DNA of 64,000 nucleotides, from the NCBI GenBank assembly GCA_021820845.1, contig JAKADC010000001.1:310001-374000 (forward strand). Direction: 5' to 3'. The translations under genes and the position numbers were made by a program. This document shows, in pieces, positions 23,037 to 37,071 of the stretch. Numbering within the stretch: position 1 is the first letter of the stretch; each line of letters begins with the position of its first letter. The notes beneath the pieces are model-generated. The model had not been told where the DNA came from. It saw only the letters and a program-made list of their open reading frames with translations, and did not search any database. This stretch comes from Pseudomonadota bacterium. GTDB taxonomy: Bacteria; Pseudomonadota; Gammaproteobacteria; Burkholderiales; Thiobacillaceae.

Positions 23037-23879
23037 ATGAATCAGTACGAAAGAAAAATGTTGGACCTACTCAAGCGAGGTAGGGAGGAGCTGGGATATA
23101 TCGGCGTAAAAGCTGAATTCGAGGCTGAAGGGACGCGTACGGACGAATTATTGAGACTTATCGAGTTGGCACGCAAAGCGGGCCTCAACGTCGGTCTCAA
23201 AATTGGGGGCTGCGAGGCGATGCGTGATTTGATGGAGAGCAAGCAATACGGCGTCGAGTACATTATTGCCCCAATGATCGAGAGTGGCTATGCCTTGTCC
23301 AAATTCATCGATGCAAAAAACAAGGTTTACAGCAAAGACGAACAACGCGACACGCGGTTTCTCTTCAACATGGAGACGAAGAGCGCATTGGGTTGTATGG
23401 ACGAATTGGTGCAAATGGCTGCTCAGCCTGACGGGGCGGATGGCATGGTCTTTGGCCGTGTCGACTTTTCCTTGTCGATGGGACTCACGCGTGACGACAT
23501 CAATGATCCGAAAGTGACATCCTATTGCCTTGAAGCCTCGGAGGCATGCAAGAAAAGCAGCCTCGATTTTGTAGTGGGGGGCGGCGTGTCGATGGATGCA
23601 CTTCCGATCATGAAGGAGCTGAATTCACGCCATCTCTCCCGATTTGAGACCAGGAAAATCATTTTTGATGCGGCGGCGATGGAGAAAGCAGATATCCATA
23701 CTGGCCTGCTGCAAGCCGTTCATTTCGAATTGCTCTGGTTGCTGAACAAGCGTGAGTACTACAGTTGCATTCTGAAAGAAGATGCCAAGCGCATAGAAAT
23801 GCTCGAAAGGCGATGGCAGGTGCTCTCGGCTGATGAGAAGACCCACATCTCGATATGCGTGAACCCACCGAACATTTGA
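23037..23879 (+). CDS. HpcH/HpaI-type aldolase (citrate lyase family)
   Basis: A 280-residue cytoplasmic protein of the HpcH/HpaI aldolase/citrate-lyase-beta superfamily. It has the TIM-barrel landmarks [12 protein letters not shown] near 55 and [17 protein letters not shown] near 75-91, the metal-binding Glu in [14 protein letters not shown] (E113) and the metal-binding Asp in [15 protein letters not shown] (D143). Family members cleave or form 4-hydroxy-2-oxo acids from pyruvate and an aldehyde using a divalent metal. In this setting it may make a 2-keto-3-deoxy acid for the dehydroquinate-synthase-like enzyme two genes on. ATG 23037 follows GAGGATGTC. Substrate unknown. Confidence 0.8.
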
Positions 23880-23887
23880 CTTTGGCC

Positions 23888-24604
23888 ATGGAAGAGTCGC
23901 GTAAAACGATCTTGCTGTTTGGTGCTAGTGGCGCCATCGGATCCACCATTGCGGACACGTTCTTGTCTCGCAACTGGCACGTGGTTGGTGTGACCCGCAG
24001 GGAGGATTCCCTCCAAGCCAATGGAATGACGTGGCTGGCTGCTGATCCGTTGTCCAGTGACGTGGCGGCGGACGTTTATGATCAACATGCGCCGTACCAT
24101 GCCGTGTGCTGGGCCCAGGGAGGAAATGTCAACGACAGCGTCTATGACGTTGATATGGGCGCGCATTTGCAGCTCTATCAGGCCAACTGCGTATACATCC
24201 TGTCTTCGTTGAAGCTGCTTTTGCAAAGGAACTTGCTCGCGAAGCCGGCGAGGTTGTGCGTCATCAGCTCGATCTGGCAGGAGATTGCGAGGCAAAACAA
24301 GCTGTCCTACGGCATGACGAAATCGGCACTGCGGGGGCTGGTTTTGTCGGCGGCGGCGGACCTCGCGGCTGACGGACATCTTGTCAATGCCATACTGCCG
24401 GGGGCGTTGGACACGCCAATGACTCGCAAGAATCTAACCGCCGAGCAGATAGGTGAACTGGCCGGCGCAACGCAATTCAATCGTCTGCCGCAGTTGGAAG
24501 ATGTTTCTCGGCTCGCTATGTTTCTTTGCTCGGAAGAGAATACGGGCATTACTGGCCAGTTCATAGCTGCTGACTTGGGATTTAGCCGTGTCCGTATCCT
24601 TTGA
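23888..24604 (+). CDS. Short-chain dehydrogenase/reductase
   Basis: A 238-residue SDR with the NAD(P) glycine motif LLFGASGAIGSTIAD near 9-22, a WAQGG segment, the catalytic Ser in VISSIW and the YxxxK pair at about Y141-K145 (SYGMTKSA), then PGALDTPMTRK. It should reduce or oxidise a hydroxyl or keto group on a cytoplasmic intermediate. An alternative ATG at 23855 would overlap the aldolase gene by 25 bases; 23888 gives the usual short lead before the Rossmann fold. Its end overlaps the next gene by 17 bases, so the genes act together. Confidence 0.82.
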   Translation: MEESRKTILLFGASGAIGSTIADTFLSRNWHVVGVTRREDSLQANGMTWLAADPLSSDVAADVYDQHAPYHAVCWAQGGNVNDSVYDVDMGAHLQLYQANCVYILSSLKLLLQRNLLAKPARLCVISSIWQEIARQNKLSYGMTKSALRGLVLSAAADLAADGHLVNAILPGALDTPMTRKNLTAEQIGELAGATQFNRLPQLEDVSRLAMFLCSEENTGITGQFIAADLGFSRVRIL

Positions 24605-25679
24605 TATCCATTCCGAAATCAAGCCCTATCAAGTCAAGATTGGAAAAGATCTGCTCGAGACGACATTCAAGGATGCGGACGACAGCATCTTCCTGTGTGA
24701 CAGTTTTTTCGCGGGCCGGCTGGCGCCTTCCGGACGCCCTGTCATCGCCGTTGATGCGACCGAGTACGCGAAAAGCCTCGATCGAATGTCCGAGGTGATC
24801 ATTCGCTTGAGAGAGAGCGGGGCCACGCGCAATACGAACCTGGTCGCGGTCGGGGGGGGGGTCATCCAGGATGTCGCTACGTTTTGCGCTTCGATCTACA
24901 TGCGGGGGATTTCCTGGAAATATTTGCCGACAACCTTGCTCGGCATGGTCGATTCCTGCATTGGCGGAAAATCCGCTGTCAATGTTGGCCCATACAAGAA
25001 CATCGTCGGCAACTTCTATCCGCCGGACGAAATCCTGGTTGATCCTGATTTATGCGGAACGCTCGCCATCGAGCAGAAGGTGGCTGGTCTGTGCGAGGCC
25101 GCCAAGATATGTTACGCACGCGGTGAAGATGCATTCGCGCGTTACCTGGCGCTGCATCCATCGGCCGACCTGGAAAACGTGGACCTGTCACAGTTGATCG
25201 AATTGAGCTTGCGCTCAAAGAAATGGTTCATCGAGGTCGATGAATTCGACCGCAATGAGCGGCTTTTGCTCAATTTTGGCCATACGTTCGGACATGCAAT
25301 CGAGGGTGCGGCCAAGTTCGCCGTCAGCCACGGCGTGGCAGTGGGTGTCGGCATGCTGGCCGCGATGCACTATGCCCGGCTCGCTACGGGAAACCGGGTG
25401 CTTTCGCAGCCGGCGAACACGCTGGCTGCCCATATCCGGGGTTTGCTCGCACATATCGATGGATTGGACGCAGTGCTTGCAGCCACGACCGAGCAGGACT
25501 TGTTCGACCGGTTTGCGGCGGACAAGAAACACAGCGCCACCGCATACACGATTGTCGGCATCGACCAGACCGGCCGTCTGCAAAGGCTGGCTTTGCCGCG
25601 TTCGCCAGAATCGGAAAGCATCATCAAGGAAACGTTCAGAGCCATACGGCATCGCGGTTTCTTGTCGGCCGCTGAATAA
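24588..25679 (+). CDS. 3-dehydroquinate synthase-like sugar phosphate cyclase
   Basis: A 363-residue member of the sugar-phosphate-cyclase superfamily, related to AroB. It has VGGGVIQDVATF near 87-98, YLPTTLLGMVDSCIGGKSAVN near 117-137, KNIVGNFYPPDEILVDP, the metal Glu in AGLCEAAK, and metal His residues in NFGHTFGHA and SHGVAVGVG. The last block replaces the usual HGEAV glutamate with valine, and sequence elsewhere departs from housekeeping AroB. With an aldolase and an SDR beside it in a polysaccharide cluster, it probably cyclises a sugar acid phosphate to a carbocycle, not shikimate-pathway dehydroquinate; that is inference. The GTG start lies inside the SDR end. A run of ten G encodes glycines 89-91. 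Confidence 0.82.
   Translation: MSVSFDIHSEIKPYQVKIGKDLLETTFKDADDSIFLCDSFFAGRLAPSGRPVIAVDATEYAKSLDRMSEVIIRLRESGATRNTNLVAVGGGVIQDVATFCASIYMRGISWKYLPTTLLGMVDSCIGGKSAVNVGPYKNIVGNFYPPDEILVDPDLCGTLAIEQKVAGLCEAAKICYARGEDAFARYLALHPSADLENVDLSQLIELSLRSKKWFIEVDEFDRNERLLLNFGHTFGHAIEGAAKFAVSHGVAVGVGMLAAMHYARLATGNRVLSQPANTLAAHIRGLLAHIDGLDAVLAATTEQDLFDRFAADKKHSATAYTIVGIDQTGRLQRLALPRSPESESIIKETFRAIRHRGFLSAAE
24852..24861 (+). repeat. Homopolymeric tract of ten G inside the cyclase-like gene
   Basis: Ten consecutive G encode Gly-Gly-Gly-Val in the nucleotide-binding loop of the dehydroquinate-synthase-like gene. Loss or gain of one base would shift the frame about a quarter of the way into the gene. It is the longest G run I noticed in the window; others reach seven. 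It is a candidate contingency tract. Confidence 0.6.
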
Positions 25680-25694
25680 CCGGCGGGTGAAGTG

Positions 25695-26675
25695 ATGGCT
25701 CTTGAATTTACCCCTGCGGTTTCGTCGGCGCTGAACAATGATCCTCGTGCGTTCCTGATCACCGGCGCAACCGGATGGCTGGGGCGGGCCCTCGCGGAGA
25801 TGCTTCGCCGCGCCTTGGGGGAGGAATTCGCCGAACGGGTGATTCTCTGTGGGTCACGAGAACAATCAATGGCGCTTGGGGATGGAACGGTTGTCGCCAT
25901 CCACGAATTGTCCAGGGCCTCGCGCCTGCTGGACGGGCGTCCTGCCTTGCTTTTTCATTTTGCGTTTCTTACCAAGGACCGCGTCGGCTCGCTTTCCGAT
26001 CAGGAATATGTCGAGCGCAACCGGGAGATCTCGGATATGGTCGCGTCCATTGTCGAGGAGGGAAATGTCTCGGGCGTCATGCTTGCCTCGTCAGGTGCTG
26101 TCTATGATCACCTTCATGGCGGGAAGCGGGACGCTGCGGCCAGCCTTTATGGCAGGCTCAAGGCAGAGGATGATTCGCGATTCGAGAAGGTGTGCGGCGC
26201 ACGCAACGTGAGACTGGTCGCGCCGCGCATCTTCAACCTGAGCGGCCCCTGCATGAACAAGTTTGATGCCTATGCCTTGTCGGCCATCATCGTTGACGTC
26301 TTGAAGGGTGGTCCGATACGGCTGAGGGCCGACAAACGGGTTTTGCGGTCGTATTTTTACATCGGCGACCTGTTCGAGCTTTGCATGCGCTGCCTCACCG
26401 ATGAGTCCATGCAGGGAGCGGCAGTCAGGTTTGACACGGTCGGGAACGAAGCCATCGAAGTCGGCGAGTTGGCGGCGCGGGTTCGCGTCGTGCTCAATCA
26501 GCCCTCGATGCCTATCGAGCGCCCTGCGCTCAAGACCGGTTCGGAGGACAGGTATATCGGTGATCCGTCTGGCCTGAATGCCCTGCTCGCGCGCTATGAA
26601 ATCGCGCCATTGGCGCTCGACGCCCAGATTGCGGAGACCGCAAACTATCTTCGTGATGCTTTGGGGGGCTGCTGA
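25695..26675 (+). CDS. NAD-dependent epimerase/dehydratase family protein
   Basis: A 326-residue extended SDR with the Rossmann motif FLITGATGWLGRALAEM near 19-35, the Ser-containing MLASSGAVYDH near 128, YGRLKAEDDSRFEK (YxxxK) near 150, and a C-terminal sugar-binding region with YFYIGDLFELCMRC near 220. These enzymes epimerise, reduce or dehydrate nucleotide sugars in the cytoplasm. ATG 25695 is used; the GTG just before it is in frame but adds one residue only. Which sugar it works on cannot be told. A role as the final reductase of either the cyclitol-like or the CDP-sugar branch is possible. Confidence 0.82.
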   Translation: MALEFTPAVSSALNNDPRAFLITGATGWLGRALAEMLRRALGEEFAERVILCGSREQSMALGDGTVVAIHELSRASRLLDGRPALLFHFAFLTKDRVGSLSDQEYVERNREISDMVASIVEEGNVSGVMLASSGAVYDHLHGGKRDAAASLYGRLKAEDDSRFEKVCGARNVRLVAPRIFNLSGPCMNKFDAYALSAIIVDVLKGGPIRLRADKRVLRSYFYIGDLFELCMRCLTDESMQGAAVRFDTVGNEAIEVGELAARVRVVLNQPSMPIERPALKTGSEDRYIGDPSGLNALLARYEIAPLALDAQIAETANYLRDALGGC

Positions 26676-27793
26676 TGGACACTGCCATGTTTCAGAATTC
26701 GAACTCCGCGTGCGGCGAGCATGCAGGCGTCGACTGGCTGCTGCCGCAGCGCCGTCACCCGTATTACATCGTCACGCCCCGCTATGTAAGAACGTCTGCC
26801 GGGATCAAGGTGCTACATCTGCTCTGCCATGCGCTCAATCGGGCAGGCGAGCGCGCCTATCTCATCACGCACCCATACTGTTTGCCACAGTACGCCACGC
26901 ATCCCGAGTTGATCACGCCGCTCCTCACCAAGGCGACCGTCGAGCATGATTTCGCGACGGGTCTGGCGCCCATCGTTGTCTATCCCGAGATCGTGCGTGG
27001 CAATCCTTTCAAGGCGCCCTTCGTGGTGCGTTACGTCCTCAATTTTCCTGGCCTGCTGGGCGGCGACAGCCAATATGGAACGGATGAGTTCTGCATTGCC
27101 TATTCGGAGAATCTCGCCCGCTCGATCCCTTCCTCCCGGCTCACGCTGTTCGTGCCCGCGTCCGACCCGCGCACATTCAGCCCCGTTCCGGAGCAGGAGC
27201 GCCGTGGCACCTGCTTCTACGCGGGAAAATACAAATATCACCATGGCGGCGAATTGTTCGATATCACGCGGGACAGCACCGAGATCACGCGAGACTTTCC
27301 CGATTCGCCTACGCAGCCCCAAATCGCCGATCTCTTTCGCAGGTCCGAACTCTTTTATTGTTATGAGAACAGCGCGCTCGCCATCGAGGCGCTGCTGTGC
27401 GGCTGCCCGGTGGTCTTCCTGCCCAACCCGTATTTCGACCGTGTGATCGCGGCGGAGGAGCATGGGTGGGATGGGATTGCGTGGGGCACCGACCCCGACG
27501 AGATTGCCCGCGCCAAACGTACTGTCCACCTGGCGCGGGATAATTTTCTGCATTATTTTGACGCTTTCCACGAAGCGCTCGGAGAATTCATCACGCGGAC
27601 GCAGTCAGAAGCTGACGGACGCAAGTACGAGACCCCCATCACCCTGCCTTATCTGAGCGACGTGAACGCCATCCTCAAGATCGGCAGCGTTCTTGAGATC
27701 GTCCGCTCCTTCTACCGGGACAAGGGTGCCATCAAGACAGTTGGCCAACTGCTTAAGCGGACCTGGCAGCGTGGACTCAGTTTTTTTGCCTGA
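26675..27793 (+). CDS. Putative GT-B glycosyltransferase
   Basis: A 372-residue soluble protein. The N-terminal half reads YYIVTPRYVRTSAGIKVLHLLCHALNRAGERAYLITH, the usual acceptor-domain opening of GT-B enzymes. The C-terminal half has TCFYAGKYKYH and RRSELFYCYENSALAIEALLCGCPVVFLP, a good match to the donor-binding E-x7-E-like region of GT4-type enzymes. Donor and linkage are unknown. It starts in TGATG overlap with the epimerase, and the dual GT2 gene follows seven bases after its stop, indicating one operon. Confidence 0.72.
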   Translation: MDTAMFQNSNSACGEHAGVDWLLPQRRHPYYIVTPRYVRTSAGIKVLHLLCHALNRAGERAYLITHPYCLPQYATHPELITPLLTKATVEHDFATGLAPIVVYPEIVRGNPFKAPFVVRYVLNFPGLLGGDSQYGTDEFCIAYSENLARSIPSSRLTLFVPASDPRTFSPVPEQERRGTCFYAGKYKYHHGGELFDITRDSTEITRDFPDSPTQPQIADLFRRSELFYCYENSALAIEALLCGCPVVFLPNPYFDRVIAAEEHGWDGIAWGTDPDEIARAKRTVHLARDNFLHYFDAFHEALGEFITRTQSEADGRKYETPITLPYLSDVNAILKIGSVLEIVRSFYRDKGAIKTVGQLLKRTWQRGLSFFA

Positions 27794-27800
27794 TTTGGCC

Positions 27801-30401
27801 ATGAGCAAGATTGAAACAATGTCCGGAGACCATCTTCTTACGATTCTGATTCCCACCCGCAATCGGGCGGCCAAGCTCGGCGATGCCTTGGGCTCACTGG
27901 TGCGCGCGATCGAACATGCTGACTGCGCAGGGAAAGTTGTCGTGACCTGCGTGGACAATTATTCCACCGACGCTACCCGAAGCGTGGTGGAGCAGTTCGC
28001 GGCAACCCGGGCGTTCGTCGAATACCGTCACCAGGACCGCGAGTGCAGGACCGCCGAGGAAAGCCTGCAAAACGCCCTGCAATACGCGCGTGGGGATTAT
28101 GTATGGTCGTTCGGCGACGACGATCAGGTGATTGAGGCGGCCTTGATGCGCCTGCTGCCGGTGCTTGAGGGGCAGAACCCGGATTTCATCCTGCTGAACC
28201 TGGTTGCGCTGGTGGACGGGGCGACGCACGGGTATTTCGAGGCGCCGTATCCGGCCATCCGCTACGCGCGAGGGCTCGACCTGTTTCGGGATCTCGGTCT
28301 CGTCTCGGCCACGACCACGATCTCGTGCCTATGCTTCCGGCGCGCGGCGCTGTCGGTCGCGGAATGGCAGCGCTTGTCCGGTATCTCTCCGATATACAGT
28401 CACTCGGTGGCGATGATGCTTGCCTTCCACGACCGGCCTGCGGTGGTGATCCCGAATCCGATCGTGGTGTACACAGCCAACACGCTGTCCGAAGAGTACG
28501 GCCGCATCACGCGCGTGGCCACCGAGCGTCGGCAACTGACACGCTATTCGTTCACGATCGGGCTGATCCGTCTGCTGACGGAGGCCTCTTCCAGGCTTGG
28601 ACTGCCGCTCGAAACGTTCCACACCTTCGAGGAAATCGAGCTGTCGGAAAGCAACTGGCTGGCCAAGAACAGCCTGCTTGGTTTCTTCGTTGCCCGTATG
28701 GTTCTGGAGCAGATCCAGCTAGGCCGGAAGAGCGGCCGGACGGAAGAGCGGTTCACCGACGAGCAGCGGCAAACGATCCTGGGCTTCTTCGAGCGGTCTC
28801 CGCACCCCATGCTGGCGAACACCATGCAGGTTGCCTTCGGTCTCGATCGCGGGCGGCAGGGTGTCTCGGAGGCCCGTGCGCTAAGGCTGCTTCGTGACCT
28901 CAGCGGCAGTCTTGAAGCGGCCGAGAACACCTGGTTCATAGCCGGCCGGTCAACGCCAGACGCGGCAAGACGCGCTGCAATCCTTTTCCCGAAAGGGCGT
29001 CCCTTCAAATTTGCGCGCGGCACGCCAGGCGGTTCGGATGGCGAACCGATGAGAATGGAACCGGGGGCGCTCGCGCTCACCATCCTGATCCCGACCTATA
29101 ACCGGGGTCGGAATTTGGCTCGCCAACTGCGCGGCTTGGCCGAGTCGGCGCTGGGACATGAGCATGACGTCGAGGTGCTGGTTGCGGTGAATGCCTGCAC
29201 CGATCGTACAGCCGCTGTCCTGCGCGCCGCGAAGCACATGCTGCCCAACTTGCGGGCGCTCGAATACCAGGAATTCGTCGATTCGGCAGAGGAAAACGTC
29301 AACCGGGCCATTCCGCAAGCGTGGGGGCGCTATGTCTGGCTGCTGGGTGACGATGACGAAATCGTCGTCCCCACACTTCAACTGCTGCTTAACATGGTGC
29401 GTTCCGGCACGGGGGCGGATGCCTATGTGTTCAATCAGTTGAACGCCAAGGAGTATGAGGCCGGCGTGAACCTCCATCGGCACAATCTCATCCATGACTT
29501 CGAGTTGCCCGGCGCCATGCGCGAAGAGAGTGCATTGGTGGAGTGCGATTATCGCGACCTGGTTCGGCGCCATGGCCTGACGACGGCCATGGCCCTCCTG
29601 TCACGCCATGTCGTGCGCAAGGCCGCGTTCATTGACAGCGCGGACTATATCGCGGTTTCCAAGATCTATTCGCACGTCTTCGGCTTCATGCGCGCGCTTG
29701 CGGGGAAGCGCACCGTGTTCGTCAATTATCCTTTGGTGGCGCGTAAAACGTCCGAGGTCACCGAACGATTCCGCAGACTGACACGCAAGGCGAGTCAGCC
29801 CATTTACTGGCCCTGGACGACTGGCCTGATCCGGCTCGCCCGCCATGCGGAGAAGGCCGGTGTGGTCGATCCGGGTTTTCTTGTGGGGGTCGTGGAAACC
29901 CATCCGGACGGCAGTCACTTTCAACTGGTTGACGAAATGTTTATCCAGATGCTGCGGCAGATGATGCATTACGTCGAAACTGGCGAACCCATGCAGTTGC
30001 CAAGCGCGGACGACATGCGCGAATTTCTCGAGTATTTCCAGGAACTGGCACCGAAAGTAGACCTTCCTGTCATGACGATGGCAACCCTGCACGCCCGTCT
30101 GGAAGGGGGGCGCCACATGCAGATCGCCAGGCGACTATCCAGCGCGGCCCTTCTGCCGAGGCTGGCGCCTTTTATGCATGAACTCAAGGACGTCAAGCGG
30201 TACATGCTGAAAGGAGCCACCATTCAGCCTGATGTTGGCGCGATGGACCGGCTGATTTTTTTCCTGGCCCAGAAGGCTCGTCGGAATCCTTGGCTGTATA
30301 GTGTCGGCCGGACGCTGCTGGCGGCCAAGGCATTTGGTCTTGGTGCCCGGATGCAAAAGTCGATCGCTAGCGTGTCTGAGGAGAGGGGGCCGTGGCCTTG
30401 A
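27801..30401 (+). CDS. Two-domain GT2 glycosyltransferase
   Basis: An 866-residue protein with two GT2 (GT-A) domains in tandem. The first opens LLTILIPTRNRAAKLGDAL near 12-30 and has the DxD-like FGDDDQ near 110; the second opens LTILIPTYNRGRNLARQL near 425 and has LLGDDDE near 517. Both read as intact, so both may be active, giving a bifunctional transferase that could build a disaccharide repeat. The C-terminal 150 residues are helical without clear relatives. ATG 27801 is chosen because it starts just before the first domain. A 113-base gap follows before rfbF. Confidence 0.82.
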   Translation: MSKIETMSGDHLLTILIPTRNRAAKLGDALGSLVRAIEHADCAGKVVVTCVDNYSTDATRSVVEQFAATRAFVEYRHQDRECRTAEESLQNALQYARGDYVWSFGDDDQVIEAALMRLLPVLEGQNPDFILLNLVALVDGATHGYFEAPYPAIRYARGLDLFRDLGLVSATTTISCLCFRRAALSVAEWQRLSGISPIYSHSVAMMLAFHDRPAVVIPNPIVVYTANTLSEEYGRITRVATERRQLTRYSFTIGLIRLLTEASSRLGLPLETFHTFEEIELSESNWLAKNSLLGFFVARMVLEQIQLGRKSGRTEERFTDEQRQTILGFFERSPHPMLANTMQVAFGLDRGRQGVSEARALRLLRDLSGSLEAAENTWFIAGRSTPDAARRAAILFPKGRPFKFARGTPGGSDGEPMRMEPGALALTILIPTYNRGRNLARQLRGLAESALGHEHDVEVLVAVNACTDRTAAVLRAAKHMLPNLRALEYQEFVDSAEENVNRAIPQAWGRYVWLLGDDDEIVVPTLQLLLNMVRSGTGADAYVFNQLNAKEYEAGVNLHRHNLIHDFELPGAMREESALVECDYRDLVRRHGLTTAMALLSRHVVRKAAFIDSADYIAVSKIYSHVFGFMRALAGKRTVFVNYPLVARKTSEVTERFRRLTRKASQPIYWPWTTGLIRLARHAEKAGVVDPGFLVGVVETHPDGSHFQLVDEMFIQMLRQMMHYVETGEPMQLPSADDMREFLEYFQELAPKVDLPVMTMATLHARLEGGRHMQIARRLSSAALLPRLAPFMHELKDVKRYMLKGATIQPDVGAMDRLIFFLAQKARRNPWLYSVGRTLLAAKAFGLGARMQKSIASVSEERGPWP

Positions 30402-30514: not shown

Positions 30515-31282
30515 GTGAAAGCAGTGATACTGGCAGGCGGGCTGGGAACCCGGTTGAGCGAAGAGACCGGGGTGCGCCCCAAGCCCATGGTCGAGGTCGG
30601 CGGCAAACCGATTCTGTGGCACATCATGAAGCTCTACTCGCACTATGGGATCGACGAGTTCATCGTCTGTCTCGGCTACAAGGGCTACATGATCAAGGAG
30701 TATTTCGCGAACTACTTTCTCCACATGTCCGACATCACGTTCGACATGTCCCGGAACGAGATGCAGGTGCATCAGAACAACGCGGAGCCTTGGCGGGTAA
30801 CCCTGGTGGACACGGGGGACGTTACCCAAACGGGGGGGCGGCTCAGGCGTGTCCGGGAATATCTGGGGGACGACGATTTCTGCATGACTTACGGCGATGG
30901 CGTGGGCAATGTGGAGATCGACAAGCTGATGGCGTTCCATCGGGCTCACGGCTGCCTGGCCACCGTGACGGCCACCCAGCCTCCGGGGCGGTTCGGAGCG
31001 CTTGATCTGGACGGCAGCAGCGTAATGAGTTTTTGCGAGAAGCCGCATGGCGACGGCGGGTGGATCAACGGCGGCTTTTTCGTCCTGTCACCGAAGGTGA
31101 TCGATTACATAAATGACGATTCAACCCTCTGGGAACGGGAACCGCTCGAAAGGCTCGCGAGCGAAAGGCAGCTCCAGGCATATTTCCATCATGGTTTCTG
31201 GCAGCCAATGGACACCTTGCGCGACAAGCAGCATCTGGAATCGCTCTGGCAGGAGGGCAAGGCGCCGTGGAAGAAATGGTGA
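30515..31282 (+). CDS. rfbF: Glucose-1-phosphate cytidylyltransferase
   Basis: A 255-residue nucleotidyltransferase that makes CDP-glucose from CTP and glucose 1-phosphate, the entry to CDP-3,6-dideoxyhexoses. Motifs: [24 protein letters not shown] at 2-25, [23 protein letters not shown] near 127-137 and the end [18 protein letters not shown], all specific to RfbF/DdhA. The GTG start has GAGG ten bases before it. It overlaps rfbG by 16 bases. A seven-G run lies at 30832-30838. Confidence 0.94.
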
Positions 31283-32343
31283 CCAGCCCGGACTTTTGGC
31301 GGGGCAAGCGGGTTTTTGTAACGGGCCATACGGGCTTCAAGGGAAGCTGGCTCTGCCTTTGGCTGCAAAAGTTGGGGGCGGAGGTCACCGGCTATGCGCT
31401 TCCCCCGCCGACCAACCCCAGTCTGTTTGAGGCGGCCGGGGTTGCCGAGGGCATGCACTCGCATTTGGGCGACATCCGGCAAGGAGAGGAACTGGCACGG
31501 GTGCTGACCGAGGCGCGGCCCGATTTCGTTTTTCATTTGGCGGCCCAGCCCTTGGTTCGCCACAGCTATACTCATCCCGTCGAGACGTATTCCACCAATG
31601 TGATGGGCACGGTCCATTTGCTCGAGGCCGTGCGGCAAACCCCGTCGGTGCGGTCGGTGATTGTCGTCACGAGCGACAAATGTTACGAGAATCGCGAGTG
31701 GCCTTGGGGGTATCGCGAGATAGACCCGATGGGCGGCTACGATCCCTACAGCAACAGCAAGGGATGCGCGGAGCTTGTGGTCTCCGCCTACCGCAGTTCC
31801 TATTTCAACCCCTCAAACTACCAGGAGCATCGTGTCGGCCTGGCATCGGCGCGCGCGGGCAACGTGATCGGCGGCGGCGACTGGGCTGCCGATCGATTGG
31901 TGCCCGACGTTGTTCGCGCGGTCAGCGCTGGTCAGGCGGTGCGGATACGCAATCCGCATGCCATTCGCCCGTGGCAGCACGTGCTGGAACCGCTCTCCGG
32001 GTATCTGCTGCTCGCGCAGCGCTTATACGAGCAAGGGCCTGCGTTTGCGCAAGGCTGGAATTTTGGTCCTGCCGATGACGATGCGCAGCCGGTTTCCTGG
32101 ATCGTCGACCGAGTAACCGCTCTTTGGGGGGACGGGGCCCGCTGGGAGCTGGAAGGCGGAGAACATGCGCATGAGGCGAATTACCTCCGGCTCGACTGCT
32201 CGAAGGCGCGAGCCGAGTTGCACTGGCAACCAAAATGGAGGCTCGGCCAAGCCCTGGAAAGGACGGTCGAATGGTACCGGGCAGCTGGGTCTGGCGCCGA
32301 TATGCGGCCGTTCACGCTGGACCAGATCGAAGCCTACCTCTGA
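31267..32343 (+). CDS. rfbG: CDP-glucose 4,6-dehydratase
   Basis: A 358-residue extended SDR that turns CDP-glucose into CDP-4-keto-6-deoxyglucose. The Rossmann motif is [19 protein letters not shown] near 16-34, the HTGFKGSW form being typical of RfbG. The catalytic region has [19 protein letters not shown], and [12 protein letters not shown] holds the YxxxK pair. The GTG at 31267 is chosen since AGGAGG lies ten bases before it; an ATG three codons on is possible. Middle gene of rfbF-rfbG-rfbH. Confidence 0.94.
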
Positions 32344-32367: not shown

Positions 32368-33690
32368 ATGGAATCATCTTCCGCAATGTTGAAGGAACAA
32401 ATCCTTTCTCTCGTAAACCAGTACGCCAACGAGACGATGTCTTCAAAGCCGTTCACGGCGGGCCAATCCGTCATTCCGCCTTCCGGCAAGGTGATCGGCG
32501 CGTTGGAACTCCAATACATGACGGAGGCTGCCCTGGACGGCTGGCTGACGACTGGCCGGTTCAACGAGGCATTCGAGCAGGAGCTTGCGAAGTTTCTAGG
32601 CGTCAATCACGTCCTTACGACCAACTCCGGCTCGTCGGCCAATCTGCTGGCGCTGGCTGCGCTGACGTCGCCCAAGCTGGGGGACCGGGCATTGCAGCCC
32701 GGGGACGAGGTCATTACGGTGGCCGCGGGATTTCCGACTACCGTCAACCCGAGCATCCTGTTTGGCCTGATACCGGTGTTTGTGGACGTGCACATCCCAA
32801 CCTACAACATCGATCCCGCCAAGATCGAAGCAGCTATCAGCCCGAAAACCCGGGCCATCATGATCGCTCACACCCTGGGCAATCCCTTCGACATCGAAGC
32901 CGTTACCCGACTGGCCAAGCAGCATAACCTCTGGCTGATCGAGGATTGTTGCGATGCACTGGGTTCTACCTATGACGGACGCAAGGTCGGCACCTTCGGC
33001 GACATCGGCACCCTGAGTTTCTACCCCGCCCATCACATCACCATGGGCGAAGGCGGCGCAGTATTTACCAACGATGGACAACTCAAGACCATTATTGAGT
33101 CATTCCGCGACTGGGGCAGGGACTGCTACTGCGCGCCCGGCAAGGACAATACCTGTGGCAAGCGTTTTGGCTGGAAGTTGGGCACGCTTCCTTTTGGCTA
33201 CGACCACAAATACACCTACTCGCACCTCGGCTTCAATTTGAAGATCACCGACATGCAGGCCGCATGCGGGCTCGCTCAACTGCAGCAGGTGGATCGTTTC
33301 ATTGAAACGAGAAAGCGAAACTTCGACTACCTCCGGGCACGCCTGAAAAAATCCTGCGAGGAATTCCTGATCCTGCCGGAAGCGACCCCCAAATCGGATC
33401 CATCGTGGTTTGGTTTTCCGATCACGCTGCGAGACGACGTCGAGTTCGATCGTGTTGCGCTTCTGAAGTATTTGGACGAACGGAAGATCGGCACGCGACT
33501 GCTTTTTGCCGGAAACCTTACTCGCCAGCCCTACATGACCGGGCGGAATTGTCGGCTCGCGGGCAGCTTGGATAATACGGATATTGTGATGAACAACACC
33601 TTCTGGGTGGGCATATATCCGGGCTTGACCGAAGAAATGCTGGAGTACATGGCGGTCCAGATCGAGCTGTTTCTGGGAATCGGGTTCTAG
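32368..33690 (+). CDS. rfbH: CDP-4-dehydro-6-deoxyglucose 3-dehydrase (E1)
   Basis: A 440-residue aspartate-aminotransferase-fold enzyme that uses PMP and a [2Fe-2S] cluster to remove the C3 hydroxyl of CDP-4-keto-6-deoxyglucose. The PLP lysine is replaced by histidine (H222 in [14 protein letters not shown]), as in AscC/RfbH. The cluster ligands fit the C-X57-C-X1-C-X7-C spacing exactly: C195, C253, C255, C263. It needs an NADH-dependent flavin/iron-sulfur reductase (E3, AscD/DdhD type), and no such gene is in the window. It follows rfbG by 24 bases. Confidence 0.95.
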
Positions 33691-33717: not shown

Positions 33718-34533
33718 ATGGCAGACTATTCCAGTATCAGTTTCAGCAGGCGTTTGCGTGATGCCATCTCGGATATGGCCAACAGCCTGGCAGCAGTGTA
33801 TTTCTGGGGATTTCTGGGGTGGCACGATATCCGGCAACGGTATAGGCGCTCGACCCTTGGACCAATGTGGATCACGGCCAGTACGGGCGTGATGGTCGCT
33901 GCGATCGGCCTCCTCTACTCGCAGATTCTCCATACCGATCTCGATCAATACCTGCCCTACCTGGCCATCGGCCTCATCACATGGGGGCTGATCTCCACTA
34001 TCATCAACGAAAGCTGCACGGTATTCATTGGTGCCGAGGCCGGGATAAAAGGCAATTCGATCCCGCTGACAGCGCATGTGCTTCGTCTTGTCTGGCGTAA
34101 TGTGATCGTATTTGGCCACAACCTGGTGATCGTGGCAGTGGTCCTCGCGCTTTTCCCGATCAGAATAGGCTGGGAGGTCTTCCTGCTGCTGCCAGCCATC
34201 CTGCTGGTTGCGCTGAACGGAGTCTGGATGGGGCTGTTTCTCGGGGTCTTGTGCACCCGTTTCCGGGATGTTGCGCAAATAGTCATCAATGTCATGCAGA
34301 TTGCGTTCTACGTAACACCAGTGATCTGGCATGCGGATGTGTTGAAAGGGCGCCATTGGGCCGTTGAGTTGAATCCCTTCTACTATCTGCTTGAAACAAT
34401 GAGAGCACCCATTCTCGGTGGTGGGCAACTCGCCCACGTATTTGGCATGACTGCGCTGATGACATTGGCCGGATTCTCGATCACCCTTCTGTTCTTCGCA
34501 CGTTTTCGTTCCCGCGTTGCTTATTGGCTCTAA
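33718..34533 (+). CDS. wzm: O-antigen/polysaccharide ABC exporter permease
   Basis: A 271-residue ABC-2 permease with six membrane helices: GWHDIRQRYRRSTLGPMWITAS near 38-59 is the family's N-terminal signature, and VTPVIWHADVLKGRHWAVELNPFYYLLETMR near 200-230 closes the transport domain. Together with Wzt it exports completed undecaprenyl-linked chains across the inner membrane. It follows rfbH by 27 bases and is followed two bases on by wzt. Confidence 0.9.
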   Translation: MADYSSISFSRRLRDAISDMANSLAAVYFWGFLGWHDIRQRYRRSTLGPMWITASTGVMVAAIGLLYSQILHTDLDQYLPYLAIGLITWGLISTIINESCTVFIGAEAGIKGNSIPLTAHVLRLVWRNVIVFGHNLVIVAVVLALFPIRIGWEVFLLLPAILLVALNGVWMGLFLGVLCTRFRDVAQIVINVMQIAFYVTPVIWHADVLKGRHWAVELNPFYYLLETMRAPILGGGQLAHVFGMTALMTLAGFSITLLFFARFRSRVAYWL

Positions 34534-34535
34534 CC

Positions 34536-35264
34536 GTGTCTCATATTCGCGCTACCGATCTCGTTGTAGATTTTCCCATCTACGATGCGTCCCAACGTTC
34601 CTTGCGAAAGGCCTTTCTCAGCGCTGCCACGGGTGGCGCGATCAAGCATGAGGGCCAGCACCGAGTTATTATCCGACCGCTTGACCGCATAAGTTTTGAT
34701 TTCCGCGAGGGTGACCGTGTCGGAGTGGTTGGCCACAACGGCGCGGGTAAGACCACGCTGCTGCGCGTGTTGAACGGCGTCTACGAGCCAGTGGGCGGCA
34801 GCCTGGATATATCCGGCCGGCTCGCATCGCTGCTTGACATCACGAACGGGTTTGACCCTGACGCCACGGGGTACGAGAACATCGTCCTGCGTGGCCTGAT
34901 GATGGGGGTCAAGCCGCGCGAAATTCGGCCAAAGATGGCCGAAATTGCAGAGTTCTCAGGCCTCGGAGAATATCTCGACCTTCCCTTGAGGACATACTCT
35001 TCCGGAATGGTCTTGCGCCTGGCGTTCGCTGTGTCCACCTCTGTGGATGCGGACATCCTGCTTATGGACGAGTGGCTGAGCGTGGGGGATGCGGAATTCA
35101 ATGAGAAGGCCTCGCAGCGGCTCAATGAACTGATCAGCAAGACCGCCATCATCGTCATCGCTTCGCACGACATGGCCATGCTGAGCCGTGTCTGTAACCG
35201 GATCATTCGCTTGGAGCACGGCAGGATTTCCGAGGACGGGCAGACGCCGCATCCCTCGCAATAG
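34536..35264 (+). CDS. wzt: O-antigen/polysaccharide ABC exporter ATP-binding protein
   Basis: A 242-residue ATPase with Walker A GHNGAGKTT at about 66-74, signature RTYSSGMVLRLAFA near 152-165 and Walker B ADILLMDEWLSVGD near 172-185, as in KpsT/Wzt. It lacks the C-terminal carbohydrate-binding domain seen in chain-cap-recognising Wzt proteins, so chain-length control is probably not by terminal-sugar recognition. The GTG at 34536, just after the wzm stop, is preferred over a TTG four codons upstream inside wzm. Confidence 0.9.
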   Translation: MSHIRATDLVVDFPIYDASQRSLRKAFLSAATGGAIKHEGQHRVIIRPLDRISFDFREGDRVGVVGHNGAGKTTLLRVLNGVYEPVGGSLDISGRLASLLDITNGFDPDATGYENIVLRGLMMGVKPREIRPKMAEIAEFSGLGEYLDLPLRTYSSGMVLRLAFAVSTSVDADILLMDEWLSVGDAEFNEKASQRLNELISKTAIIVIASHDMAMLSRVCNRIIRLEHGRISEDGQTPHPSQ

Positions 35265-35307: not shown

Positions 35308-37071
35308 ATGCGCTATAGCGATGTAATGGCCGACTGGCTGAAAGACATGGGTTTTACACACTGCTTCTTCGTGGCGGGAGGCAACATCATGCATATGGTG
35401 GCGAGTGCCAGTAAGCGCTTCAAATGCATCCCCGTTGTGCATGAAGTCGCAGCAGGTATCGCAGCGGAGTATTTCAATGAAAGCAACCGCACTGAGCGCG
35501 CCTTCGCTCTTGTTACTGCTGGGCCTGGGCTTACCAACATCGTTACGGCGATCGGTGGGGCGTGGCTCGAGAGTCGCGAGTTGTTGGTCATTGGCGGGCA
35601 GGTCAAGACCGACGACCTGAGCCGGAACACCCTGCGCCAGAAGGGCATACAGGAGATCGCGGGCGTGGATATCGTCCGGCCGATCACGCGCCACTCAATC
35701 TTGCTGGATGAGGTTGCGGACCGCCAATCGTTCACGCGTTACGTGCAGGACGGGGCCGAAGGCCGGAAAGGCCCCGTATTCATCGAAATTCCATTGGATA
35801 TTCAAGGGCGCGACGTTGATCCCGAAAAGCTGAGTGAAGTTGAACCGACAATCACCGAAGCGGCGCCGCCTTCTTTGGATGATTCGGCTTTGCTACGCAT
35901 TGTCGAGGCCATCCGTGCAGCCAAACGTCCCATGCTGTTGCTGGGTGGGGGCGTGCATCGATCAACCACCGAAACGCTCTACGACAGCCTTGCGGACATG
36001 GGCGTACCGATCACCACGACATGGAATGGTGCGGATCGCATCGGTGTAGACCATCCGATGTACTTCGGCCGCCCTAATACATGGGGGCAGCGATACAGCA
36101 ACTTGTTGCTGCAGCAGTCCGATCTGATCGTCGCCTTGGGCAGCCGCTTGGGACTGCAACAGACCGGATTTAACTGGCAGCAATTCGCGCCGAAAGGCCG
36201 CGTCGTACAGGTTGACTGTGATGCCGCGGAATTGGAAAAAGGTCATCCAAAGGTTGATATCGCGTGGCGCGCTGATGCAAACATCGTACTGACCTCCCTG
36301 TCGGGCCATGAGCTCGGCGACCATTCGGGCTGGGTCGAATACTGCCGCCTGGTGCGCGACAAGTTGCCCATTGTGGAGCAAGGCAATAAAACAGGGGAAG
36401 GCTATATCTCGCCGTATGTCTTTGTACAGCAGCTGTCGCATATGAGTAGTGCGCGCGACGTCGTGATTCCGTGCAGCAGCGGTGGCGCTTTTACGGTAAT
36501 GATGCAGGCTTTCGATCAGAAACGCGGACAGGTCATCATTAGCGACAAGGGACTGGCCTCGATGGGCTACGGTCTCAGCGGGGCCATCGGAGCGGCCTTT
36601 GCACACCCCGACAGACGCGTGACTCTCGTAGAGGGCGATGGAGGATTTGCCCAGAATTTGCAGGAGTTGGGCACGGCAGCGATTAACAAGCTGAACTTGA
36701 AGATATTCATTTTCGAGGATGGCGGGTATGCCTCCATCCGTATGACTCAGCGGAATTATTTCGGAGGACATTACGTTGGTTGTGACCGTATGACGGGACT
36801 GGGACTGCCTAATTGGGAGGCCCTTTTTGCGGCCTACGGGATACCCTGCATGCGTGTTGGCCCTGGTTTCGAGAAAGACGGCGATTTCTCGCACTTGTTT
36901 AACGCATCCGGCGTGGCGGGATTCTTGGTGGCGATCGACCCCGAGCAGACTTATTTCCCAAAAATTACCAGCCGCGTGACCGAGACCGGAAGCATGGAAT
37001 CAAATCCACTTCATCGAATGACGCCGGATCTCGATGAAGAGCTCTACAACACGGTAGGTCGCTACCTTTGA
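35308..37071 (+). CDS. Thiamine-diphosphate enzyme, acetolactate-synthase-like (possible YerE-type)
   Basis: A 587-residue three-domain ThDP enzyme. The Pyr domain holds the catalytic Glu in VHEVAAGIAAEYF (E46). A central domain carries LLLGGGVHRS. The PP domain has EGDGGFAQNLQELGTA at about 442-457 and the metal-site segment IFEDGGYASIR, where Asp471 stands at the usual Asn position. In a cluster with rfbFGH this type fits YerE, which adds a two-carbon unit from pyruvate to C4 of CDP-4-keto-3,6-dideoxyglucose to make yersiniose. The family also contains acetolactate synthases and other carboligases, so the substrate is inference. Last intact gene of the low-GC block. Confidence 0.8.
   Translation: MRYSDVMADWLKDMGFTHCFFVAGGNIMHMVASASKRFKCIPVVHEVAAGIAAEYFNESNRTERAFALVTAGPGLTNIVTAIGGAWLESRELLVIGGQVKTDDLSRNTLRQKGIQEIAGVDIVRPITRHSILLDEVADRQSFTRYVQDGAEGRKGPVFIEIPLDIQGRDVDPEKLSEVEPTITEAAPPSLDDSALLRIVEAIRAAKRPMLLLGGGVHRSTTETLYDSLADMGVPITTTWNGADRIGVDHPMYFGRPNTWGQRYSNLLLQQSDLIVALGSRLGLQQTGFNWQQFAPKGRVVQVDCDAAELEKGHPKVDIAWRADANIVLTSLSGHELGDHSGWVEYCRLVRDKLPIVEQGNKTGEGYISPYVFVQQLSHMSSARDVVIPCSSGGAFTVMMQAFDQKRGQVIISDKGLASMGYGLSGAIGAAFAHPDRRVTLVEGDGGFAQNLQELGTAAINKLNLKIFIFEDGGYASIRMTQRNYFGGHYVGCDRMTGLGLPNWEALFAAYGIPCMRVGPGFEKDGDFSHLFNASGVAGFLVAIDPEQTYFPKITSRVTETGSMESNPLHRMTPDLDEELYNTVGRYL

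Follow-up and report, generated by a model that had tools for sequence, protein, structure and literature searches.

A probable caryophyllose-type branched-sugar gene set with a probably non-cyclising dehydroquinate synthase relative in a Thiobacillaceae genome

Described branched-sugar systems and the locus in the window

Caryophyllose is a C12 sugar (PMC7821131), namely 3,6-dideoxy-4-C-(D-altro-1,3,4,5-tetrahydroxyhexyl)-D-xylo-hexopyranose, and deletions of MMAR_2331, MMAR_2332 and MMAR_2333 in Mycobacterium marinum lead to accumulation of a precursor without caryophyllose (PMC5706390). MMAR_2332 is described as a thiamine diphosphate (ThDP) enzyme serving caryophyllose (PMC12247030), MMAR_2333 is listed as a glycosyltransferase (PMC4403928), and the small RNA B11 is reported to affect mmar_2329, mmar_2330 and mmar_2331 among the genes of the lipooligosaccharide (LOS) locus (PMC12395582). 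In the related yersiniose and erwiniose systems, YerE adds a pyruvate-derived unit to cytidine diphosphate (CDP)-3,6-dideoxy-4-keto-glucose, while ErwE prefers 4-hydroxy-2-oxo acid donors, and ErwE and MMAR_2332 favour hydroxylated keto acids (PMC12247030). Here we compare these systems with a window of 64,000 nucleotides from a 2.85 Mb Thiobacillaceae genome (assembly GCA_021820845.1, contig JAKADC010000001.1, positions 310,001 to 374,000), in which a cassette of four open reading frames (ORFs), all on the + strand at 23037-26675, encodes an HpcH/HpaI-type aldolase, a short-chain dehydrogenase/reductase (SDR), a homologue of the dehydroquinate (DHQ) synthase AroB and an extended SDR of the epimerase family. 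An earlier note, made from the letters of the DNA, had read this cassette as a candidate pathway for a carbocyclic surface-glycan residue. With a probability of roughly 0.6, in our estimation, the genes instead serve to make the branch of a caryophyllose-type sugar, i.e. a 3,6-dideoxyhexose carrying at C4 a hydroxylated side chain of six carbons, and the AroB homologue of this pathway would not close a ring.

The ORFs confirm that the four genes lie where the earlier note placed them and on the strand it gave, adjoining ORFs overlapping or being 12 bases apart, and a Pfam scan (HpcH_HpaI, adh_short_C2, DHQ_synthase with DHQS_C, Epimerase) agrees with all four names. The limits of the cassette were drawn too narrowly, however, as rfbF, rfbG and rfbH and then a YerE-like ThDP carboligase, all within 10 kb beyond the epimerase gene, had been missed. 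The gene set around the cassette upholds the idea of an unusual surface-sugar pathway. The ThDP gene clusters with the CDP-4-keto-6-deoxy sugar genes rfbF, rfbG and rfbH, each scoring over its cut-off, and the best solved match of the ThDP enzyme is 8rph (286.5 bits), which we take to be JanthE, ahead of acetolactate synthases. We propose that this enzyme couples a keto acid to C4 of a CDP-4-keto sugar. The window would then have in common with YerE and ErwE both the CDP-3,6-dideoxy-4-keto-glucose acceptor and a ThDP enzyme that branches C4; unlike the proposed route of the window, YerE uses pyruvate, and the accessible portion of the source mentions an AroB-like and SDR pair for neither enzyme (PMC12247030).

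The comparison with M. marinum carries most of the argument. The genome used (G897) is M. marinum or its closest kin, as six published mmpL12 primers match it with 0-1 mismatch (primers from PMC12507525), and a protein recorded under the name M. marinum shows 100% identity to the AroB-like protein of this genome. Its locus (L203) has the AroB-like gene, SDR, aldolase, ThDP enzyme, a family 2 glycosyltransferase (GT2) and rfbF in this order on one strand, and rfbH and rfbG on the other. If the ThDP enzyme is taken as MMAR_2332 and the glycosyltransferase as MMAR_2333, gene order makes the aldolase MMAR_2331, the SDR MMAR_2330 and the AroB-like gene MMAR_2329; this numbering is our own mapping. 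The window carries the same gene set, i.e. rfbF, rfbG, rfbH, aldolase, ThDP enzyme, SDR (with weak kinship) and AroB-like gene together, and the window proteins are identical to those of M. marinum at 57% (aldolase, over 264 aa), 52% (ThDP enzyme, over 592 aa), 58% (RfbH), 53% (RfbF) and 48% (RfbG) of positions. The aldolase of M. marinum is 63% identical to that of another cassette relative, L090. The two loci differ in gene order and strand, in glycosyltransferases and in export, and their AroB-like proteins and SDRs are distant from each other.

Natural variation among mycobacteria adds to this picture. A search of 346 Mycobacterium genomes for rfbF found 59 over the cut-off; the surroundings of rfbF were read in 53, of which 34 had rfb matches only, and the other 19 clusters were tabulated. 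The SDR and the AroB-like gene are both present in seven of the 19 and both missing in 12. In a whole-genome search, the AroB-like genes of the seven are 83-100% identical to that of M. marinum, and in all seven the SDR (80-100%) adjoins the AroB-like gene, with an aldolase (89-100%) and a ThDP enzyme also present; aldolase and pair are separated by about 18 kb in G871 and by about 12 kb in G949. The same search found no AroB-like gene of the M. marinum type in the other 12 genomes, nor was an SDR of that type seen in the 16-60 kb read in each. Two of them have a ThDP enzyme and an aldolase that is just 80-81% like that of M. marinum, seven have a ThDP enzyme with a NeuB-type synthase, two have a distant ThDP enzyme only and one has none of these genes; an SDR with about 30% identity is present in two of these 12, and we take it as unrelated. 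Because of this distribution, we regard the AroB-like gene and the SDR as a module that may or may not be added to a core made up of the ThDP enzyme and either aldolase or NeuB. What the caryophyllose branch requires in addition to this core is deoxygenation of its end. The LOS locus has been stated to occur only in M. marinum (PMC12395582), in contrast to the caryophyllose-type genes seen here in seven of the 19 tabulated clusters.

Conservation of the cassette and divergence from AroB

A scan of one genome per species, with motif patterns that do not fit the mycobacterial type, confirmed 271 relatives of the AroB-like protein, of which the best 80 were kept. The SDR adjoins the AroB-like gene in 79 of these 80 loci, a linkage far beyond chance. 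Where at least 8 kb was available on both sides (46 loci), the SDR is adjacent in all 46, an aldolase is found in 42 and NeuB in 2 (one or the other in 44), a ThDP enzyme in 44, rfbF or rfbG in 40, rfbH in 32, and one of two extended SDRs, either the window type or another, in 44. As a weak control, aldolase, SDR and ThDP enzyme are absent from 17/17 AroB loci, each with a flank of about 1.5 kb. Judged by the labels of the records, many of which are metagenome-assembled genomes (MAGs), carriers belong to the Pseudomonadota, Acidobacteriota, Actinomycetota, Cyanobacteriota and Bdellovibrionota. Within the genus of the window, the block from the aldolase to the 372-aa protein that follows the epimerase is present in 2/55 other genomes (G011 and G047). 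A plasmid collection gave no match for the window AroB-like protein at E<=1e-40 and two Paracoccus matches (36%) for that of M. marinum, and a cassette cyclase of Bradyrhizobium, searched against 391 genomes of the family of G100 at E<=1e-60, matched G100 itself only.

In five of the 80 loci (L039, L074, L077, L088 and L096) the aldolase is replaced by a NeuB-family synthase, whose gene lies immediately upstream of the SDR in four of them and downstream of the ThDP gene in L088; aldolase and NeuB are never found together. HpcH/HpaI aldolases and NeuB-type synthases both make 2-keto-3-deoxy acids. Since NeuB replaces the aldolase without ever accompanying it, the aldolase step is probably the formation of such an acid, as previously suggested. 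The metal ligands E113 and D143 of the aldolase are present, with simple patterns around them in 65/65 relatives, and the YxxxK pattern of the SDR occurs in 73/73; the residues Y141 and K145 named for the SDR are in place if counted from an internal ATG at 23888.

The AroB-like protein scores 229.7 bits against the AroB model TIGR01357, under the cut-off of 305. Its best NCBIfam match is TIGR04425, an AroB-related putative sugar phosphate phospholyase (cyclizing), at 269.5 bits, also under the cut-off (400), and 33/33 chosen relatives match the same model; to our knowledge TIGR04425 is a hypothetical family with no tested function. A tree built from 81 sequences of the cassette type and 23 AroBs separates the two groups with support of 100/99, and a second tree, to which the M. 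marinum AroB and three more rows were added, gave the same split with a Shimodaira-Hasegawa-like approximate likelihood ratio (SH-aLRT) support of 95. The AroBs of the first tree comprised 11 from a genus survey and 12 of 16 fetched regions; the four that the motif filter had missed, two of them only AroB-like, were added in the second tree, which was built without three long rows (L084, L088 and L101). Two alignments, A1 and A2, comprise 30 and 33 chosen sequences, respectively. Two further DHQ-synthase-like genes fall outside both clades and are more distant, one in M. marinum (G897:C1:632977-633810, L217) and one in Bradyrhizobium sp. CCGUVB4N (G100:C1:2162629-2162958, L228), each being a third such gene in its genome. 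The nearest named relatives of the window protein are found in two MAGs, one of Hydrogenophilales (93%) and one of Thiobacillus (86%).

The residues follow the same division. All 89 cassette sequences compared, a few of which are near-duplicates, have D38, Q94, W110 and C124; at these positions the AroBs show N (17/18), G (18/18), F (16/18) and S (18/18). Kept in both groups are K128, N132, K137, N138, E170, K173, K211, R225, N229, H232, H236, H248 and K314, the catalytic and zinc positions of DHQ synthase, some of which handle the keto-acid substrate in AroB; the metal and substrate motifs of the cyclase are indeed retained. The change of HGEAV to HGVAV is real, as 89/89 cassette relatives lack the glutamate that 18/18 AroBs have, but it has no diagnostic value: the glutamate is also missing from two DHQ synthases of solved structure, those of Thermus (HGMAV) and M. 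tuberculosis (HGAAV), and from the AroB of M. marinum (HGAAV), and we reject the change as a mark of new function. A structure model (predicted local distance difference test score 92.1) has the DHQ synthase fold, and the best solved matches to the model are DHQ synthases, with 2-deoxy-scyllo-inosose (DOI) synthase at rank 6. By sequence against solved chains, AroB (131.6 bits) comes before DOI synthase (109.9) and the 'Cyclase' 4p53 (86.5), i.e. the protein is not nearer to cyclases of the 2-deoxy-scyllo-inosose or valiolone type than to AroB. With AroB it has the fold and the catalytic and zinc positions in common; it differs in clade, in the four residues above and in its neighbours, and on these sequence comparisons it is not the housekeeping AroB, in agreement with the earlier note.

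Proposed route and its alternatives

We infer the following route for the organism of the window. RfbF, RfbG and RfbH would make CDP-4-keto-3,6-dideoxyglucose, and the aldolase would form a 3-deoxy-heptulosonate 7-phosphate from pyruvate and an aldose phosphate, for which erythrose 4-phosphate is the simplest choice. DHQ synthase itself oxidises C5, eliminates the C7 phosphate, reduces C5 and opens the ring, after which C7 attacks C2. The AroB homologue may run the first part of this chemistry, i.e. transient oxidation, phosphate loss and ring opening, with C7 being protonated instead of attacking C2, which would give a 3,7-dideoxy-2,6-diulosonate with a terminal methyl. The SDR would reduce the C6 ketone of the released diulosonate, giving the donor keto acid. 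From this acid the ThDP enzyme would remove CO2 and transfer the remaining acyl group to C4 of the CDP-sugar. The ketone that is left may be reduced by the extended SDR of the cassette, and the glycosyltransferases and the ABC exporter would then build the surface glycan. By our own deduction, the 1,3,4,5-tetrahydroxyhexyl branch equals a 3,7-dideoxy-heptulosonate minus CO2, and the scheme therefore fits caryophyllose. The retention of keto-acid-handling residues suggests that the step of the AroB homologue precedes that of the ThDP enzyme. In our reading of the name, D-altro agrees with an origin of C4' and C5' from erythrose 4-phosphate, and C3' is opposite to that of 3-deoxy-D-arabino-heptulosonate 7-phosphate; the pathway might for this reason require an aldolase of its own, and perhaps ring closure would fail for the same reason.

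Several observations weigh against this account. Over 278 aa the AroB-like protein of M. marinum is just 38% identical to that of the window, and its branch in the tree is long; the M. marinum SDR matches the window SDR over 111 aa only, at 34%, which is weak kinship. For the 12 mycobacterial clusters without the SDR, its absence applies to the 16-60 kb read in each genome rather than to the whole genome. Among the fully flanked loci, the ThDP enzyme is missing from L064 and L067, and aldolase and NeuB are both missing from L064 and L084. Finally, with the catalytic and zinc positions of DHQ synthase all kept, the sequence gives no sign of why ring closure should fail. The exceptional loci imply that the AroB-like and SDR pair can serve elsewhere, and it may have a second use. 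In L052 and L064 the pair is found in other surroundings, with what by eye are a flavin-type oxidoreductase and a zinc alcohol dehydrogenase, and without ThDP enzyme or aldolase. We consider it slightly better than an even chance that the cassette clade as a whole represents a new activity of the DHQ synthase fold, namely a phospholyase that acts on a 3-deoxy-heptulosonate 7-phosphate without forming a C-C bond. Together with its partner SDR it would deoxygenate the chain end and, in at least five bacterial phyla, furnish the 3,7-dideoxy keto acids from which ThDP enzymes make branched C12 sugars.

It is necessary to ask whether the AroB homologue does close a ring. Applied to the branched sugar that the ThDP enzyme would make, the idea of the earlier note would then mean a carbocyclic branch, or a carbocyclic residue apart from it. 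The full set of DHQ synthase catalytic positions, the fold of the model and the word 'cyclizing' in the name of the nearest NCBIfam model (itself a hypothetical family) speak for it, yet a ring formed by attack on C2 would leave the ThDP enzyme without the 2-keto group on which it depends. The same gene set occurs in the M. marinum locus known for caryophyllose, whose branch is open-chain and terminates in CH3, and a carbocyclic product, as first suggested, is for this reason unlikely. The cluster proposed for bradyrhizose in photosynthetic Bradyrhizobium resembles the window in serving a surface sugar and in having a sugar dehydratase gene (PMC4743980), and bradyrhizose had been offered as a parallel. 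We located this gdh cluster by a published primer, which matches 13/265 Bradyrhizobium genomes with <=3 mismatches, one of them exactly; in seven regions from six of the 13 genomes, searches with the window proteins at E<=1e-4 found no match for aldolase, SDR, cyclase or ThDP enzyme. Bradyrhizose is rejected as the product of the cassette as far as the gdh cluster is concerned. Only distant rfbF- and rfbG-like matches are seen in one such cluster (L116-L117, G346), and the bradyrhizose route therefore looks different from that of the cassette. With these points taken together the carbocycle is disfavoured, and we would give it a rather small chance.

We see about the same small chance that the AroB-like protein and the SDR act at another step of the same route, e.g. 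by deoxygenating either a tetrose phosphate ahead of the aldolase step or the branch once the ThDP enzyme has acted. The co-occurrence and the M. marinum link fit this equally well, and the order of steps is not fixed by the order of genes; the kept residues that handle the keto acid in AroB favour an ulosonate with its carboxylate, however, and a tetrose phosphate would seem too short for this chemistry. That a spare housekeeping AroB came to lie in a glycan locus by chance, as the name '3-dehydroquinate synthase' in public records might suggest, is very improbable and rejected, given the score under cut-off, the separate clade, the adjoining SDR, a further and stronger DHQ synthase gene in the genome of the window and at least two such genes in 20/20 other cassette genomes checked.

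Gene inventory, variants of the locus and meaning

The features of the window locus are collected in Table 1. The role of the 372-aa protein is a guess; its relatives accompany the cassette in 12 gene-called loci, and it is perhaps a transferase for the branched sugar.

Table 1. Features of the locus in the window, with one NeuB-type example from a related locus
Feature	Position	Strand	Remarks
HpcH/HpaI-type aldolase	23037..23879	+	Pfam HpcH_HpaI 26.1 bits, cut-off 25, marginal
SDR	23855..24604	+	adh_short_C2; start possibly 23888
AroB-like protein ('cyclase')	24588..25679	+	GTG start; DHQ_synthase + DHQS_C
Extended SDR (epimerase family)	25692..26675	+	Pfam Epimerase 67.3 bits
372-aa protein, possible glycosyltransferase (role guessed)	26675..27793	+	no Pfam/NCBIfam match
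Tandem GT2 glycosyltransferase	27801..30401	+	two Glycos_transf_2 stretches
RfbF, glucose-1-phosphate cytidylyltransferase	30515..31282	+	TIGR02623 474.6 bits, cut-off 300.25
RfbG, CDP-glucose 4,6-dehydratase	31267..32343	+	TIGR02622 529.3 bits, cut-off 278.45
RfbH, 3-dehydratase of CDP-4-keto-6-deoxyglucose	32368..33690	+	NF011936 752.8 bits, cut-off 423
ABC exporter membrane subunit, Wzm-like	33718..34533	+	ABC2_membrane 66.2 bits
ABC exporter ATPase, Wzt-like	34524..35264	+	ABC_tran; NF050108 272 bits, under its cut-off 400
YerE-like ThDP carboligase	35308..37071	+	three TPP_enzyme domains; best solved match 8rph
NeuB-family synthase (example)	L039:7580-8668		in place of HpcH/HpaI aldolase

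Loci without rfbH (e.g. L062, L075 and L080) form a second type of cluster. Its ThDP enzyme is more distant (about 33%) and its extended SDR a different one, and it also has a GtrA-like protein, a GT2 resembling dolichol-phosphate mannose synthase and often a methyltransferase. A methyltransferase is found in 9/14 loci without rfbH versus 1/32 with it (p = 1.6e-5), which fits a C3 hydroxyl that is methylated where it is not removed, and the second type probably makes a 3-hydroxy or 3-O-methyl variant of the sugar. A 3-O-methylated 4-C-branched sugar is reported from the O-antigen of R. palustris CGA009 (review PMC9912281).

The earlier note, whose interpretation is on the whole partly supported, knew of no described pathway with its gene set. 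Caryophyllose and its ThDP enzyme have in fact been described (PMC12247030), so that the statement stands for the AroB-like and SDR step only: in the accessible portions of the open-licence literature we recognised no report that links AroB-like genes to caryophyllose or describes either of these steps. The best-supported account is that of a caryophyllose-type branched-sugar pathway with an unexpected DHQ synthase relative that is probably non-cyclising. If this is true, the caryophyllose branch would have a complete and testable gene-to-sugar route, and the 'AroB' annotations in many surface-glycan loci would be wrong. A relative of DHQ synthase that halts before ring closure would also be a probe of what drives cyclisation, the protein or the substrate. 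The comparison further suggests that the branch of such sugars might be predicted from genomes, according to whether the ThDP enzyme is found alone, with an aldolase, with NeuB, or with an aldolase, an SDR and the AroB homologue.

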